Below, one piece after another: positions 30,584-38,992 of a stretch of DNA of 64,000 bases (position 1 is the first letter of the stretch; each line of letters starts with the position of its first letter). The stretch is from Phycisphaerae bacterium (GTDB lineage: Bacteria; Planctomycetota; Phycisphaerae; UBA1845; PWPN01): positions 1 through 64,000 of the forward strand of contig JAAXZI010000161.1 of NCBI GenBank assembly GCA_012719955.1, given 5' to 3'. The notes below the pieces were generated by a model. The model worked only from the letters and a program-made list of their open reading frames with translations. It was not told the origin of the DNA and did no database searches. A program made the translations under genes and the position numbers.

Positions 30584-32047
30584 TCAGCACTCCTCGAACA
30601 CCTCGATTCCCGTGAACCGCGCGAAGCGTTTCGCGTCCGTCATGTGGCTGCCGTAAAAGATCACCCGGTGCAGGCCGTTGGACCAGTTTTCCAGTAGCTT
30701 GCGGGCGTCGGACACCTTCACGGCGGCTTTGGTGCGGCAGCCCCGGTCCGAGTCGGGAATGGCCACGATCCGGCCGGTGGACAGCAGCAGGATGTTTGCG
30801 CCCCAGCTCTCAGCAGGGCTGGCCGCCAGGGACGGGGCCTGGAGATCCCGCGGGATCGCGCCAACGAGCTTGGCCATGGTGATTTCCTGGCCGACGCGCA
30901 TCTTGGTCTGTAGCACCGCGCCCTTGTGATCCTCCAGGTGCGAGCGGATTTCGTAGGGGGCCGACTCTCCGGCCGGGCCATCCATCTTGGTGGCGGCCAC
31001 GCAATGCGCGTGGATGACGGTGTTGTTGGACAGGTCCACCACCGGATCAGTCACGAAGCCGGGGACGCCTTCCATGTGCTGGAAGATGATCTGGGTCATC
31101 GTGGAAGGCAGGTCGGCCTCGCACACGCCGGCCAGTCCGAGATCATTGAGCCGGGCGAACCCGAAGCACGGATAGGCCGGCAGCCCGTGCGAGAACAAGC
31201 CCAGGCAGTTAATGGTGATCGCGAAGGCCTTTTCTTCGGCCATGACCTTCTGGAGGGCCAGGCAGAAGCGGGCCGACTTGGCGATCTCTTCGCGGTTGGG
31301 TTCGCGCACGCGCTGAGCGCCCTTGATCCACTTCTCCGTATCCGCCTCGACAGCCGCGGCGGGGATCGCGTCGTACGCCTCCACCAGCCGGGTGTGGTCG
31401 TAGGTGACCACCGTCGTGCCGAATTTCTTCTTGATATCGGCCACGTAGTCGGCCGGCGGCTGCCAGTTGTGCCCGCCGACGAACAGCACTCTGGTTTGCT
31501 TCATCCGCCCGATGGCCCGGAACACGCGCACGGCCTCCAGCACGTTCTCAAACCGGCTGGACGCGATGACGTCGATCTTCTTGCCCGTCCGTTGCAGGTC
31601 CGGCACGATGGACCATTCGTGCCCGCTGTACGGCGTGGCGAACAGTACGGTCGGCCGGCCCGAGTCGGCCATGATGTTCAAGAAGTCGCTGGTGCCCATG
31701 CACACCTGGACGGCCAGGATGCCGGCCGCGTCCTGGTGCGCCTCCATCAGTTCGGTCAGCGCCTTGGGGTCGTTCACGAAGGTGTTGCCCACGTACTCGA
31801 TGTCACCCTGGCCGGGGACCTCGTCGAGGGCCTTCATGAGCCGCTCGTGTTCGGCCTTGGTGTCCAGGTCCGGCCGGGGCCAGCCCGGGTGTCGGCCGAT
31901 GAACACCCGTAAGACCCTGGTTTTCCCAAATGAAAACGGTGACCCGCCGGCCTGCGCGGCCAGGGTCGCCTTACACAGCCCGCCGGCCACGGCTGTTCCC
32001 GCCGCAGCCGTCCCCAGTAACTCTCGCCTGCTGATTTCCGTGTTCAT
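30584..32047 (-). CDS. Tat-signal, sugar isomerase (fucose/arabinose isomerase-like) family protein
   Basis: MNTEISRRELLGTAAAGTAVAGG; L-fucose isomerase-like pattern in C-terminal half. Confidence 0.6.
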   Translation of the reverse strand: MNTEISRRELLGTAAAGTAVAGGLCKATLAAQAGGSPFSFGKTRVLRVFIGRHPGWPRPDLDTKAEHERLMKALDEVPGQGDIEYVGNTFVNDPKALTELMEAHQDAAGILAVQVCMGTSDFLNIMADSGRPTVLFATPYSGHEWSIVPDLQRTGKKIDVIASSRFENVLEAVRVFRAIGRMKQTRVLFVGGHNWQPPADYVADIKKKFGTTVVTYDHTRLVEAYDAIPAAAVEADTEKWIKGAQRVREPNREEIAKSARFCLALQKVMAEEKAFAITINCLGLFSHGLPAYPCFGFARLNDLGLAGVCEADLPSTMTQIIFQHMEGVPGFVTDPVVDLSNNTVIHAHCVAATKMDGPAGESAPYEIRSHLEDHKGAVLQTKMRVGQEITMAKLVGAIPRDLQAPSLAASPAESWGANILLLSTGRIVAIPDSDRGCRTKAAVKVSDARKLLENWSNGLHRVIFYGSHMTDAKRFARFTGIEVFEEC

Positions 32048-32344
32048 ATCCTGGCTCCTTGTATGGTTCGCGCAACGACGACAACACGTAGAGATTGCGG
32101 AGGAGAATGCCCGAATGGCGGGGCGTGATGGTGAGACGGCAAAGCGCATGGCGCGTGTGCCACGGCTCTTGAGCCGTGCCGGGACAATTCCGACATGAGG
32201 CACTGCTCTTTTCTGCGGCGAATGATGGGCCAGGCTGCAAGAGCAATGGCACACACAAAGCAGCGGCGCGTCCCAGGATGTGTCGCAAGATCGCGCACGG
32301 TTAATGAGGGTTGCGTTGAGAATCTGGAATCACCAATCTGAAAT

Positions 32345-32473: not shown

Positions 32474-34060
32474 TCACGCCGACAGGCACTCCCACTCGAT
32501 TCCCAGCTTCTTGATCGCGTAGCCGACCTCGCGGGTGCAGTCTCCGTAGCAGGTCATCCAGTGGAAACCGCGCATCTCCTCAAGCAGCTTGTGCCAGTCG
32601 CCCTCGATGGTGATGTCGGTTTGCGAGCGGCATATGGCGTGGAACGGGTTGCCGATCACCTTCCCGGTGAAGCCGACCCACTTTTTCGAGGCAAAATCGG
32701 GCACCACGTTGGTGGTCAGCGTGCCTTCCTTCATCGCCACTTTGGGGGCGGCGCCGTAGTCCGACTCGAAATGCGTGTGGATCTCCACCGGCTCGTAATT
32801 CTTGCCGTCCAGCTTGCGCGGGGCGGTGCAGTGGGCGATGGTCACCTGCCCGTGATGTGGCCAGGTGGGGTCGTTCAGGAACACCGGCAATCCGGTGATG
32901 TGGTGCATGAGCATCCCCGCGGGGATGACCACGAAATCGGACTCGCAGAAGGCCAGCAACCCCTCATCGTTGATCAGACTCAGAGGCAGGCAGGCGGTGG
33001 TCTTGGAAATGGGCATGACCGTGCCCATGCAGTGCTGGATGGTCATGGCCGTGGCTTCGTGGTCGGCCATCAGCTCTTTGAACGCGTGGTAGAGCACGAA
33101 CGCGTTCTCGACCGCCTCGCGCTCGCACTTGAGGGTGACGCCGGGTTGGGCGAGATACTCGGCCGCTTCCTTTTTGGCCCTGGCCATCGCCTCGGCGCCC
33201 TGGCGGTACTTCTCGATGCGCTTGCCCAGCTCGTCGTAGGACACGTCGCGGATATCGAGATGCCACGTGTTGCGGGCGACCGGCGGAGCGAGCTTGCGGC
33301 CCTCGCCCCAGCCGCCGGCGCCGCCGATGGCGACGATCCGCTGGCCCAGCGTCAGACGCAGGGCGGCCAGTGCCCGCAGCCGCCAGGCCAGATCCTTGTA
33401 CTCATCCACCACCACGTCGTCCACGTCGATCTGCTTGATCTTGTATTCGTCGGATGCCCGGCGCAGGAAATGCGGATGCAGGATCTCGTACCACAGCGAG
33501 ACCGGTCCGGAGTTGTGCCGGAGGAAGAAGACGGTGGGGCGGTCGGGCGACATCAGGGCGTCGAGGACGGCCGTGCTGCCGCTGGACGCGTAGATGAGCA
33601 TGGTGTCGCACTTGCCCGTGGCAACCTTCCGGGCCTCTTCGACGGTGCGTACGGCCGCTACCGGGAGCAACTTGACCTTCAAACCGTGAGCGGCCACCAT
33701 CGCGCGCAGTTCGGCCTCGATGCGTTTGACCTCCGCAACCACGTCGCTCTCGTTCATCAGGCCGCCCCAGGGTCGCCAACTGGTTTGCTCGCGGCGCTGG
33801 TGCAGGGCGTAGACCAGTGCGGGCTGGACCACCAGCTCCTGGGCGGGCATGATCGCGGGCTTGCCGCCCTCTGCGGGCTGGGCGTTGGCCTCCTTAGCTC
33901 CCCCGGAAAGCATCCAAGACCCGATCGCGGTCGCACCCAGTCCGCCGATGAGCGCCCGGCGCGAAAGGCTCGCCTGGATGAGCGCCTCCCCGGCCTGGTG
34001 TAACGCGCTCGAGCAGCATCGGCATGAGCCGGCCGCGTGTGACAGTTGTTCGCGGTTCAT
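32474..34060 (-). CDS. Second sugar isomerase-like protein with Tat-like N-terminus
   Basis: 528 aa; LSRRALIGGLGATAIGSWML; similar architecture and C-terminus to 30584-32047. Confidence 0.6.
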   Translation of the reverse strand: MNREQLSHAAGSCRCCSSALHQAGEALIQASLSRRALIGGLGATAIGSWMLSGGAKEANAQPAEGGKPAIMPAQELVVQPALVYALHQRREQTSWRPWGGLMNESDVVAEVKRIEAELRAMVAAHGLKVKLLPVAAVRTVEEARKVATGKCDTMLIYASSGSTAVLDALMSPDRPTVFFLRHNSGPVSLWYEILHPHFLRRASDEYKIKQIDVDDVVVDEYKDLAWRLRALAALRLTLGQRIVAIGGAGGWGEGRKLAPPVARNTWHLDIRDVSYDELGKRIEKYRQGAEAMARAKKEAAEYLAQPGVTLKCEREAVENAFVLYHAFKELMADHEATAMTIQHCMGTVMPISKTTACLPLSLINDEGLLAFCESDFVVIPAGMLMHHITGLPVFLNDPTWPHHGQVTIAHCTAPRKLDGKNYEPVEIHTHFESDYGAAPKVAMKEGTLTTNVVPDFASKKWVGFTGKVIGNPFHAICRSQTDITIEGDWHKLLEEMRGFHWMTCYGDCTREVGYAIKKLGIEWECLSA

Positions 34061-34179: not shown

Positions 34180-34935
34180 TTACTTGCCTGAGTTGCCGTG
34201 CGCGCGGCGGTACGCCGCGCAGGCCTCCACGAAGGTCTTGAACAGTCTGCGGGTCACCCGGCTGTAAGGCAGCCGCTCGGGGTGCCACTGCACCGCCAGG
34301 ATTTCCGGGCGCAGCGGATTTTCGATGGCTTCGATGATGCCGTCGTCGGCCACGGCGCTGGGGATAAAGCCCGGGGCTATGTACCGGATGGCCTGGTGAT
34401 GATCGGAGATGACGCTCACGGTGCGCGCATCCAGAATCTCCGCCAGTCGGGTGCCGGGCATAACATGCACGTCGTGCCGGACTTTGCGTTTGCCGCGATG
34501 GCTGATGCGGATGCCCTTTTTCTTGGGGTGCAGATGCTGGTAGAGCGTGCCGCCCTCCAAGACATTGATGAGCTGCATGCCGTAGCAGATGCCGAAGATC
34601 GGCAGCCGGCGGCGTTTACCGGCCTGGTAGAGCCAGGTTTCGAAAGCGGTCCGCTTGGAATAGATGACGTGCGTATAGCTGCGCGGCGTCTCGCCGTACA
34701 GCCGCGGGTCCACGTCGTCGCCGCCCACGATGAGCAGTCCGTCGATGCCTTCCAGGAAGCGCTTCAGGACGCGCTTCTTGTGGGCCACCGGCAGCAACAC
34801 CGGGTGCCCGCCGGCATTGTCGATGGCCATGGCGTAGCGGTGATCGCAGACCAGATCGTAATCGGCGTAATCCTTCCTTTTCGAGATCGTCTCGCAACTG
34901 ATGCCGATCAGCGGGGCGTGGATTCGTCTACGCAT
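34180..34935 (-). CDS. PuuD-like class I glutamine amidotransferase / gamma-glutamyl hydrolase
   Basis: FGICYGMQLINV nucleophile elbow, SDHHQAI, VQWHPE catalytic His-Glu. Confidence 0.85.
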   Translation of the reverse strand: MRRRIHAPLIGISCETISKRKDYADYDLVCDHRYAMAIDNAGGHPVLLPVAHKKRVLKRFLEGIDGLLIVGGDDVDPRLYGETPRSYTHVIYSKRTAFETWLYQAGKRRRLPIFGICYGMQLINVLEGGTLYQHLHPKKKGIRISHRGKRKVRHDVHVMPGTRLAEILDARTVSVISDHHQAIRYIAPGFIPSAVADDGIIEAIENPLRPEILAVQWHPERLPYSRVTRRLFKTFVEACAAYRRAHGNSGK

Positions 34936-36034
34936 CCACGGACGCTCCCTTCCGGCCGAGATAAACCGAATCGATGTTCGGCAGCTTCACCTTCAGGGCA
35001 TCGGTGAAGTATTCGAGCGAGTTGCCGCTGAGCAGATCTTCCAGGCCGATGCTGTAGCGTTTGGCGAAGCGCCGCTGCCAGGTCTGGGGGTGCTCCTGGC
35101 GGGCGATCAGGGCGGCGTTGTGGATGATCTTGGCCCCGTTGTACCCGCGTTTGAGCAGCTTGAAGATGTCGTAGACTTCGCTGGGAACGTCCATTTCCTC
35201 GAACTCGTCCCGATACTCCCACAGAAAACGGTCGAGGTACTTGCGCGCGGGGATCCACTCGCCATCCCACGGCAGCCGGCACTTCATGCCCCGGGTTCCG
35301 GCGTCGAACCGGGCCTGAATGTAGTCCTCCTGATTGTGGATGGGGTTCGGCGCCCCCTTGCGGCGCAGCCAGCCCAGTGCGACCGCCTTGGTCACGCAAA
35401 CGGCCGCCACAATGAATTCGGGAATGTTCGAGTCCAGCACGCGCAGTTCCAGCGTGGCCGGCTTGCGCTTCCGGCCGGGGCTGTAGACCATCTCGCGCGT
35501 ATCTTTGGAGGTCAGCTCGCCGCGTTTGAGCGCCTCAAAGTAGGTGTCCGTGCCGCGCAGCAGGCGGTTGGAGGCCTTGGCCGTGATCTTTTTGTCCCAC
35601 ACCGGCGAGTTGGCCCCCATGGCGATGAGCAGCGGGATGTTGTCGTGCAGATGAGCGGCCAGCGAACGGGCCCGCGGCCGGGTCAGCTCCTCATTTGCAA
35701 CGGACAGGTGCAAATGGGCGCCGGCGAACCGATTGGTCCATCCGCCGACCAGCAGGGGAATGTTGTGGTCCGGCTCGCCGTGCTGTTGACCGTAGAGGTT
35801 CCGCAGGTATTTGCGAAGCCCGCTCTTCAGCAGGAACAATGATTCCCGAACCGTCTCAAACGGGCGGCTGTTGTATTCACTGCCGATGCTGGTATCGCGA
35901 GCGAACCGTTCTCCGTTCTCAGACACCCCGGGGCGCGGCCGGGACAGACGGCGCCCAATCTGGTAATCGGCCGCCCCAATGCTGTACGCTTCGATCTCGA
36001 CGCCGATCACAATGCGTTTGTGAAAGCCGTTCAA
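34928..36034 (-). CDS. GCS2/amidoligase-like carboxylate-amine ligase
   Basis: IGVEIEAYSI; GAHLHLS; MGANSPVWDKKITAKASNR; overlaps the GATase start by 8 nt. Confidence 0.65.
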   Translation of the reverse strand: MNGFHKRIVIGVEIEAYSIGAADYQIGRRLSRPRPGVSENGERFARDTSIGSEYNSRPFETVRESLFLLKSGLRKYLRNLYGQQHGEPDHNIPLLVGGWTNRFAGAHLHLSVANEELTRPRARSLAAHLHDNIPLLIAMGANSPVWDKKITAKASNRLLRGTDTYFEALKRGELTSKDTREMVYSPGRKRKPATLELRVLDSNIPEFIVAAVCVTKAVALGWLRRKGAPNPIHNQEDYIQARFDAGTRGMKCRLPWDGEWIPARKYLDRFLWEYRDEFEEMDVPSEVYDIFKLLKRGYNGAKIIHNAALIARQEHPQTWQRRFAKRYSIGLEDLLSGNSLEYFTDALKVKLPNIDSVYLGRKGASVDA

Positions 36035-36283: not shown

Positions 36284-37828
36284 TCAGGGGCGCTGGGTCG
36301 GCTGAGATTCAACTTCTTTGACCACAGTGATTTGTGGCTTACCCATGGTGATCCAGACCGAGCCGGCGAGTTCGGCCACGCCGCCGTCATTCCCATCGCT
36401 GAGCCCCAGGACGATATGGCTGGGGTCTACGTCGGTTTGTTCAAGTGCGGCGTCCACGTCCACCCACTGACCCTCTATGTAGAACTGCGTCCACAGGTGG
36501 CCGACGAAGACCCGCTCCCGGCCCAGGAACTCATCCGTATACACAAACCCCGTCGCGAGGCGAGTGGGAATGCCCACGGCCCGGCCCAGGGCCGCCAGCA
36601 GCACGCCGTGCTCGGTGCAATCTCCCTCCTTGCTGCGGGCCACTTCGCCGGCGGTGGCAAAGCCGACGCTGAGGTCCTTGGTCTGAACGTAATTGCTCAC
36701 GAACGCGCGCAGCCGGTCGGCCAGCTTCATGGGGTCTTTCTCTTCTCCGGCGGCTTCTTTGACCAGCCTGGCGACTGCGGGGTCTTTGTAGTTGAGCACG
36801 GATGAGGCGGCCAGGTAACGCGCGCGCTCTTCCTGGCTCAGGGCCGTGCCGGCCGGCTTGGCCGGGCGGGCCGAGTGCCGGGTGTTGGTCAGCGTTACGG
36901 CGTCGTTCTCCTGGCTGACGATTTTCTGCATGTCCGTTTCGGGAAGCCGCGGCAGCTTATCCTTGCCATCCCACCGGAGCCGGAAGGTGATTCGGGCGGC
37001 CTCGCGGTCGATCGGCTCTTTCACCGTGATCAGCGTCCGGCCCATGATGTCGGCGGGGTCATCCTCGGCCAGGGCCACCGCCTTGGGACAGGCGATCATC
37101 ACCACGGGAATGTCCATGACGTTCATTTCCATCCGCACCGCGTCGCCTGCCTCGGTCAGCCAGATGGTGGTAGCGATCTCCGTTGATTTCCCGAACAGCC
37201 CGGGAATCGTGAGCGTCTGCCGGCTGCGGATGGTTTCCACCTTCCGGCCGAACAGATCGATCTGCTCCCTATCGAGAATCTCGACCTTGGCGGTGGTGAG
37301 CTTGTCCGGGGCGATGGTGGGGTCGTAGAGGGACAAATCGTAGCTGGTGCCGGGTTTGAGCCCGCGGTCGATCTGCTCGCGATAGGCGCCCCAGCTCATG
37401 CGCGCCCCTTTGGGCAGCGTGTAGGTCTTTTTGTCCGTGGCGAGGCCGAACTGGCGGGTGACAATGGTGACCTTGCCATCGGCGAAGGTGCCCGAAGTGG
37501 AGGTGGGAATTTTGCCCAGCGACATCCGGCTGGAGAACTTGAGAGGCTCACCGGCCAGCGTCTCCTCGGTTTCCTGGGTCATTTTGACGGTCAGCGCCCC
37601 CTCGCCTCGCCCGGCGATCATGGTCATCTCGTTTCGCGTTCTGATCACGTCGCCCCCGTCGCGCTTCACGCGCTCCATGGTCGCGTGCATGTGGCCGCTT
37701 TTGGCGCCGGCCAGCATGACCGCGTACCACTCGTTGGCGAAGACGCCTTGAGGTGGATCATTGACATCCAGGGCCAGGGCCGGGACCGCCAGAACGGTTA
37801 TCAGCAGGGCGCAGGTATGCTTTTTCAT
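36284..37828 (-). CDS. Secreted transglutaminase-like domain protein
   Basis: Signal MKKHTCALLITVLAVPALA; EGDCTEHGVLLAALGRAVGIPTRLATGFVY...GHLWTQFYIEGQWVDVDAAL (C-H-D triad). Confidence 0.85.
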   Translation of the reverse strand: MKKHTCALLITVLAVPALALDVNDPPQGVFANEWYAVMLAGAKSGHMHATMERVKRDGGDVIRTRNEMTMIAGRGEGALTVKMTQETEETLAGEPLKFSSRMSLGKIPTSTSGTFADGKVTIVTRQFGLATDKKTYTLPKGARMSWGAYREQIDRGLKPGTSYDLSLYDPTIAPDKLTTAKVEILDREQIDLFGRKVETIRSRQTLTIPGLFGKSTEIATTIWLTEAGDAVRMEMNVMDIPVVMIACPKAVALAEDDPADIMGRTLITVKEPIDREAARITFRLRWDGKDKLPRLPETDMQKIVSQENDAVTLTNTRHSARPAKPAGTALSQEERARYLAASSVLNYKDPAVARLVKEAAGEEKDPMKLADRLRAFVSNYVQTKDLSVGFATAGEVARSKEGDCTEHGVLLAALGRAVGIPTRLATGFVYTDEFLGRERVFVGHLWTQFYIEGQWVDVDAALEQTDVDPSHIVLGLSDGNDGGVAELAGSVWITMGKPQITVVKEVESQPTQRP

Positions 37829-38047
37829 ACCTTTGTTATACACGCCTCGTGCCTGAAGGACGAGACGCTCTTCGCGTAGAGTTCGGTAACGTCGCACCGC
37901 ACGAGAAAAAGGTGTACAATAACTGATGGGCATTCGGGCGAAGCACACACGGGGAAAATGGGGCCCGGCGGATTGTCAGTAGCGCCTGGCGGGTGAAACC
38001 GGCAGGCTCCAGCCAATACGAGGGAATGCACGAGCGGGAGGTGCATT

Positions 38048-38992
38048 ATGGTCTTTCGTCCCACGTCAAGACGGTTCGAGTGGGTAGCGGGCGCTTCGGC
38101 TTTCACGCTGATGGAAGTTCTGGTTGTCGTAGGCATTATCGCGGTCCTGGTGGCGCTTCTGGCCCCTTCACTGGCCGCCGCTCGCCAGCAAAGTCGGGCC
38201 GTGGTCTGTGCCAACAATATCCGTCAGATTGGCGTGGGTTGGCATCTGTATGCCCAGCAATGGCAGGAGGTCGCCGTGGCCGGTCGGTTCCCCAAGATCG
38301 CCGGGTCTACCAATCTCTATTGGGTGGGAAACGGCTGGAAGTACCGCGCCCGCTGGTACGCGATGCTCGGTGCCCAGGTACGGTTGTTCGCTTTCTCCAA
38401 GCCCAGCCCCGACCCCGCCCTGGATAACACCCAGCCGGTGGACGGCGAGGTCTTCCTCGACCCGGAGGCGCCCGAGTACATTAACGCTCGCAACTATCCA
38501 TATGGCTATAACTTCCAGTTCCTGGGCAACAGCCGGTCGCGGCTCGGGGCCGGCCCGACGGACTGGGTTCGCTGGCCGGTGAAGGTCGGCCAGATCAAGA
38601 CCCCGGCACGCACCGTTATGGCCGCTGATTCGCTCGGCACCGCCGCCAGCACGCCCACCGCCGAGCGGTTGCCCTACGATCCGACCGGCACTTCCGCCAA
38701 TACCCATCCATCACGTGTCGTCAATCACGGATGGGCCCTCGATCCGCCCCGGCTGACGGCCACAGGCGACTTCTGCGATGACGGTCTCCGGGGTCAAGCC
38801 CGCTCCGCTCCGGACGAAAGGCACCGTGGCAAGGCCAACGTGATCTTCTGCGATACCCACGTCGAGCGCCTGCGCTCCAAGCAACTGGGCTACGTGGTGA
38901 ACGACGACGGCACGGTCCCCCTGACCGGGGCGGGGAGTAATTCTCTCTTTTCAGGTACCGGCCGCGACGATGACCCGCCGCCCATCCAATAG
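38048..38992 (+). CDS. Type II secretion/prepilin-type protein (DUF1559-like)
   Basis: FTLMEVLVVVGIIAVLVALLAPSLAAARQQSRAVVCANNIRQIG; HRGKANVIFCDTHVERL. Confidence 0.85.
   Translation: MVFRPTSRRFEWVAGASAFTLMEVLVVVGIIAVLVALLAPSLAAARQQSRAVVCANNIRQIGVGWHLYAQQWQEVAVAGRFPKIAGSTNLYWVGNGWKYRARWYAMLGAQVRLFAFSKPSPDPALDNTQPVDGEVFLDPEAPEYINARNYPYGYNFQFLGNSRSRLGAGPTDWVRWPVKVGQIKTPARTVMAADSLGTAASTPTAERLPYDPTGTSANTHPSRVVNHGWALDPPRLTATGDFCDDGLRGQARSAPDERHRGKANVIFCDTHVERLRSKQLGYVVNDDGTVPLTGAGSNSLFSGTGRDDDPPPIQ

Follow-up and report, generated by a model that had tools for sequence, protein, structure and literature searches.

A divergent GCS2/YbdK-type ligase gene overlapping a peptidase C26 gene: a putative gamma-glutamyl ligase and hydrolase pair

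Two genes that overlap by eight nucleotides on one strand of the window (by which we mean the whole 64,000-nucleotide stretch of Phycisphaerae DNA that was analysed) probably encode, with a rough probability of 0.6, a coupled pair of enzymes in which a ligase builds a gamma-glutamyl amide of an amine and a hydrolase cleaves that same amide. We infer these activities from sequence comparisons and predicted models, on the basis of results on gene structure, overlap, family and fold, catalytic residues and selection. The features are the following:

34928..36034, minus strand: ligase gene, 368 aa, TTG start; divergent GCS2/YbdK-like carboxylate-amine ligase
34180..34935, minus strand: hydrolase gene, 251 aa, ATG start; PuuD-like class I GATase / peptidase C26
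34928..34935, minus strand: 8-nt stop/start overlap ATGCGTAG, of the form ATGRNTAR in relatives

Both open reading frames lie where the initial annotation had placed them, without giving the strand, and the overlap it had described between the ligase stop and the GATase start is exact when read from the sequence. The ligase gene ends in ...GTGG-ATGCGTAG and the hydrolase gene begins with ATGCGTAGACGA, so that exactly 8 nt are shared. A ligase start just 5' of the conserved H5 is compatible with the relatives as well, one of which (L006) has a TTG start at the matching place.

Profile comparison, active-site motifs and predicted fold agree in pointing to a divergent GCS2/YbdK-type carboxylate-amine ligase. 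The sole Pfam match of the window ligase is GCS2 (PF04107), at 15.8 bits for a gathering score of 21, and it scores 31.2 bits against the NCBIfam model of YbdK (TIGR02050), below the curated cut-off of 176.4. Each of the seven sequences in the first family alignment matches the GCS2 and YbdK models weakly, and none of them matches PF12224 (Amidoligase_2) at E 1. Of the label "GCS2/amidoligase-like" in the initial annotation, which had suggested these two Pfam models for a search, the GCS2 part is supported and the PF12224 part is not. When seven genomes were scanned with PF04107, the family's own locus exceeded the cut-off in five of them and fell below it in the window and in L002, a Nitrospirae MAG. 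A profile of 23 family sequences matched that of the YbdK-type GCS2 proteins of the window's own phylum with 98.7% probability (E 4.5e-16, 287 columns); for a second group of GCS2 sequences (L093-L095) the match between profiles was not significant (16%). Searching the PDB by sequence, with the ligase or the family profile as query, retrieved no ligase.

The GCS2 / carboxylate-amine ligase superfamily is defined by active-site motifs, e.g., GhExE on core strand 1 (PMC2588565), and every residue class that defines it occurs in the ligase. GhExE is present as G11-V-E13-I-E15, with the glycine and both glutamates invariant in the 27 rows of the alignment. The acidic residues D47 and E53 are located on predicted strands 44-47 and 52-56; D47 is invariant in the ligase family and mostly Glu in the YbdK rows. 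The [HD]x[NH] motif of strand 4 appears as H107-x-H109 on a predicted strand at 105-112, and Ex[RK]x2D of strand 6 as E196-x-R198-x2-D201. The arginines expected before and on strand 5 are R157 and R188, the latter presumably on strand 5. In addition to the residues of GhExE, E53, R157, R188, E196, R198 and D201 are invariant in 27/27 rows. The ligase motifs quoted in the initial annotation were also recovered (GVEIEAYSI at 11-19, GAHLHLS at 105-111, ANSP at 141-144 and ASNR at 154-157).

An AlphaFold model of the ligase, built with YbdK-type rows added to the alignment, reached a pLDDT of 80.8 and a pTM of 0.86; this confidence depends on those rows, as the family sequences alone gave a pLDDT of 40 and an unusable model. 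The best PDB match of the model is YbdK (1r8g, E 6.9e-11), followed by plant glutamate-cysteine ligase, Dop and PafA. The window ligase thus resembles YbdK in fold, active-site motifs, size and the extent of the profile match, but it is only about 16-19% identical to the YbdK-type rows, it carries an extra family-specific C-terminal block (314-327) with the invariant stretch EHPQTWQRRFAKRY, and it shares an operon with a C26 hydrolase.

The assignment of the hydrolase is more direct. Its match to PF07722 (peptidase C26) scores 195.8 bits for a gathering score of 20.5 (E 1.1e-57), and its PDB matches include Lin1909 (3fij, E 2e-33) and PuuD (6vtv, E 3.6e-22), which bears out the earlier description as a PuuD-like class I GATase. 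The Cys-His-Glu triad C117, H218 and E220 is intact and invariant in the five aligned hydrolases, and the motifs GICYGMQ (115-121), HHQ (179-181) and QWHPE (216-220) are present as had been reported. The protein shares the C26 family, the triad and a full-length alignment with the gamma-glutamyl-GABA hydrolase PuuD; however, it scores 92.6 bits against the PuuD equivalog NF008471, under the cut-off of 266, so we regard it as PuuD-like rather than as PuuD. No conserved pathway genes lie nearby. The window's paired hydrolase is 57-60% identical to those of the aligned Nitrospirae loci, in comparison with 33% to an unlinked second C26 protein of its own genome (L037, 1435-2241, minus strand) and 34% to an unlinked one in the genome of L002; the paired hydrolases are therefore a group of their own. 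Plasmids hold relatives of the hydrolase at less than 60% identity, with no ligase alongside in the one record examined.

The ligase is rare in the genomes sampled from the window's phylum and common in one Nitrospirae family. Counting the window's genome in both cases, it was found in 2 of the 296 sampled genomes of its phylum, and as a strong match in 2/398 genomes of its class. Strong matches occur in 4/296 genomes of the phylum of L002. In the Nitrospirae family to which G491 belongs, 20 of the 50 species surveyed have the ligase; two of these loci are cut by contig ends, and in each of the remaining 18 the hydrolase follows with an overlap of exactly 8 nt. Profile sampling covered these two phyla, and one pattern-based scan beyond them returned a single locus; no relatives of the ligase were found in plasmid, phage and viral collections. 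Among the Nitrospirae pairs compared, dN/dS is 0.03-0.08 for both genes, which are under strong purifying selection. These low ratios, together with the identical overlap in all the checkable relatives, indicate that the reading frames and their overlap are not due to chance.

Such conservation supports the coupling proposed in the initial annotation, for which lack of pair conservation would have been the counter-evidence, but not its strictness, since the ligases of L006 (from the window's family) and L007 (from its phylum) have no adjacent hydrolase. The genome of L006 contains no strong C26 match anywhere, so some lineages can dispense with the hydrolase. In the ligase tree, the window clusters with these two orphans, separate from the Nitrospirae. 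As the overlapping pair is thus present on both sides of the tree, the orphans have most simply lost the hydrolase, although lateral transfer may be the alternative. In L003, the genes at 559-1407 and 1480-2595 are, by eye, an AraC-like regulator gene and the orphan ligase gene of G078, the latter some 70 nt downstream of the former and in the same orientation.

A third conserved gene, for which a neighbourhood survey had been suggested, was not found across lineages; only the ligase and the hydrolase are held in common, which argues that the pair is the functional unit. Nor did any C26 gene lie within a flank of about 1.5 kb of the ordinary GCS2 genes of the window's phylum, and the C26 linkage is therefore specific to this ligase subfamily. 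Genes for a YtxH protein and for a two-component system stand near the pair in part of the Nitrospirae loci only, several of which have the arrangement of L012, where these genes flank the ligase-hydrolase operon:

L012, 9791-10081: YtxH-like protein
L012, 5250-6926 and 3899-5422: histidine kinase / sigma-54 response regulator pair

Cytochrome bd-like genes were noted by eye upstream of the pair in L002. No pathway genes linked to the pair were found in the loci compared, and none of these neighbours suggests a substrate.

We propose that the two genes form a translationally coupled operon. The ligase would phosphorylate a carboxylate at the expense of ATP, the likeliest one being the gamma-carboxylate of glutamate, and would then join the activated group to some amine, giving a gamma-glutamyl amide. 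The hydrolase, by means of its triad, would hydrolyse this amide and release glutamate, so that the pair would add and remove a gamma-glutamyl group on one small molecule. A joint substrate is likely in view of the strictly conserved overlap, and the cycle might serve for protection, storage, detoxification or turnover. More tentatively, and as a possibility that we consider rather less likely than its negation, Nitrospira-type bacteria, and a small number of bacteria in the window's phylum, would use this GCS2 subfamily for a hitherto undescribed, reversible gamma-glutamylation of one specific metabolite, and the acceptor would be a novel one, different from cysteine and from polyamines.

It seems unlikely that the ligase is instead a divergent glutamate-cysteine ligase whose product, gamma-glutamylcysteine, serves as a cell thiol or precursor and is degraded by the hydrolase. 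YbdK and plant glutamate-cysteine ligase are indeed the nearest in fold and profile, NCBIfam models named "glutamate--cysteine ligase" match weakly, and the title of the YbdK structure paper, as cited in PMC2588565, names gamma-glutamyl:cysteine ligase activity. Against this, the ligase scores far below the GshA and YbdK cut-offs, and GshB (PF02955) is absent from the window's genome and the tested relatives; the weak PF02955 matches in Nitrospirae include one that on examination was RimK. Orthology to GshA, which had been named as a competing explanation, is improbable on these two grounds, and a role in glutathione synthesis is unlikely because no GshB was found beyond RimK-type cross-matches, even if gamma-glutamylcysteine as an end product may be compatible with that absence. 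Orthology to EgtA had been raised as well, and no EgtA model of NCBIfam matched the ligase.

The class I GATase fold supplies ammonia in GuaA, CarA and CTP synthase, and the pair could by analogy be a glutamine-dependent amide synthetase, in which ammonia set free from glutamine by the GATase would be channelled to the ligase for amidation of a carboxylate. The overlap would suit stoichiometric subunits and GuaA models match the hydrolase weakly; yet C26/PuuD models fit it far better (92.6 bits vs 42.7 bits for amidotransferase models) and the orphan ligases keep all the catalytic residues without a GATase, which makes ammonia channelling a quite improbable function. Dop and PafA among the fold matches also bring to mind a modification of proteins or peptides, as in pupylation, reversed by the C26 enzyme. 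We give very little credence to this idea, as YbdK is nearer in fold and the lineages share neither a small tag-like ORF nor any other third gene beside the pair. Formation and cleavage of a gamma-glutamyl amide by the two enzymes is the reading that we prefer.

Known systems offer partial parallels to this proposed cycle. PuuA, the ligase of the Puu pathway, resembles glutamine synthetase and is not of the GCS2 type. In ergothioneine synthesis, a GCS2-type ligase, EgtA, adds a gamma-glutamyl group that a hydrolase, EgtC, later removes, which is the same succession as proposed for the window pair; EgtC, however, is a class II amidohydrolase, whereas the window hydrolase is of class I. Another parallel is offered by the "New CAL" ligases, which belong to the same superfamily and which we take to be Amidoligase_2 (PF12224), the model that found no match in the seven members of the present family. 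For these ligases, neighbourhoods with a GATase-like thiol peptidase have been predicted (PMC2588565), so the principle of a ligase with a GATase is already predicted, for another ligase family. A limited literature search found no function assigned to the pair and no description of this GCS2 subfamily or of its invariant C26 overlap, both of which appear to be new. Known ligase-plus-GATase pairings are thereby extended to a separate branch of GCS2 ligases. We think that the pair deserves attention because it is common in one Nitrospirae family, nitrite oxidisers with a central part in nitrification being among the members of that phylum, and because a likely joint substrate reduces the question of function to a simple two-enzyme assay.

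Some other genes of the window surround the pair. A transglutaminase-like gene (36284-37948, minus strand; PF01841, weak DUF3108) is located 250 nt upstream of the ligase gene and has the same orientation; it was considered as a third component and rejected, being absent beside the relatives' pairs. Two large adjoining ORFs (30584-32254 and 32474-34060, both minus strand) have Tat-like N-termini by eye; one has a weak match to an L-arabinose isomerase central domain and the other has no Pfam match. On the plus strand, 38048-38992 encodes a DUF1559 prepilin-like protein, of a kind that is abundant in Planctomycetes.
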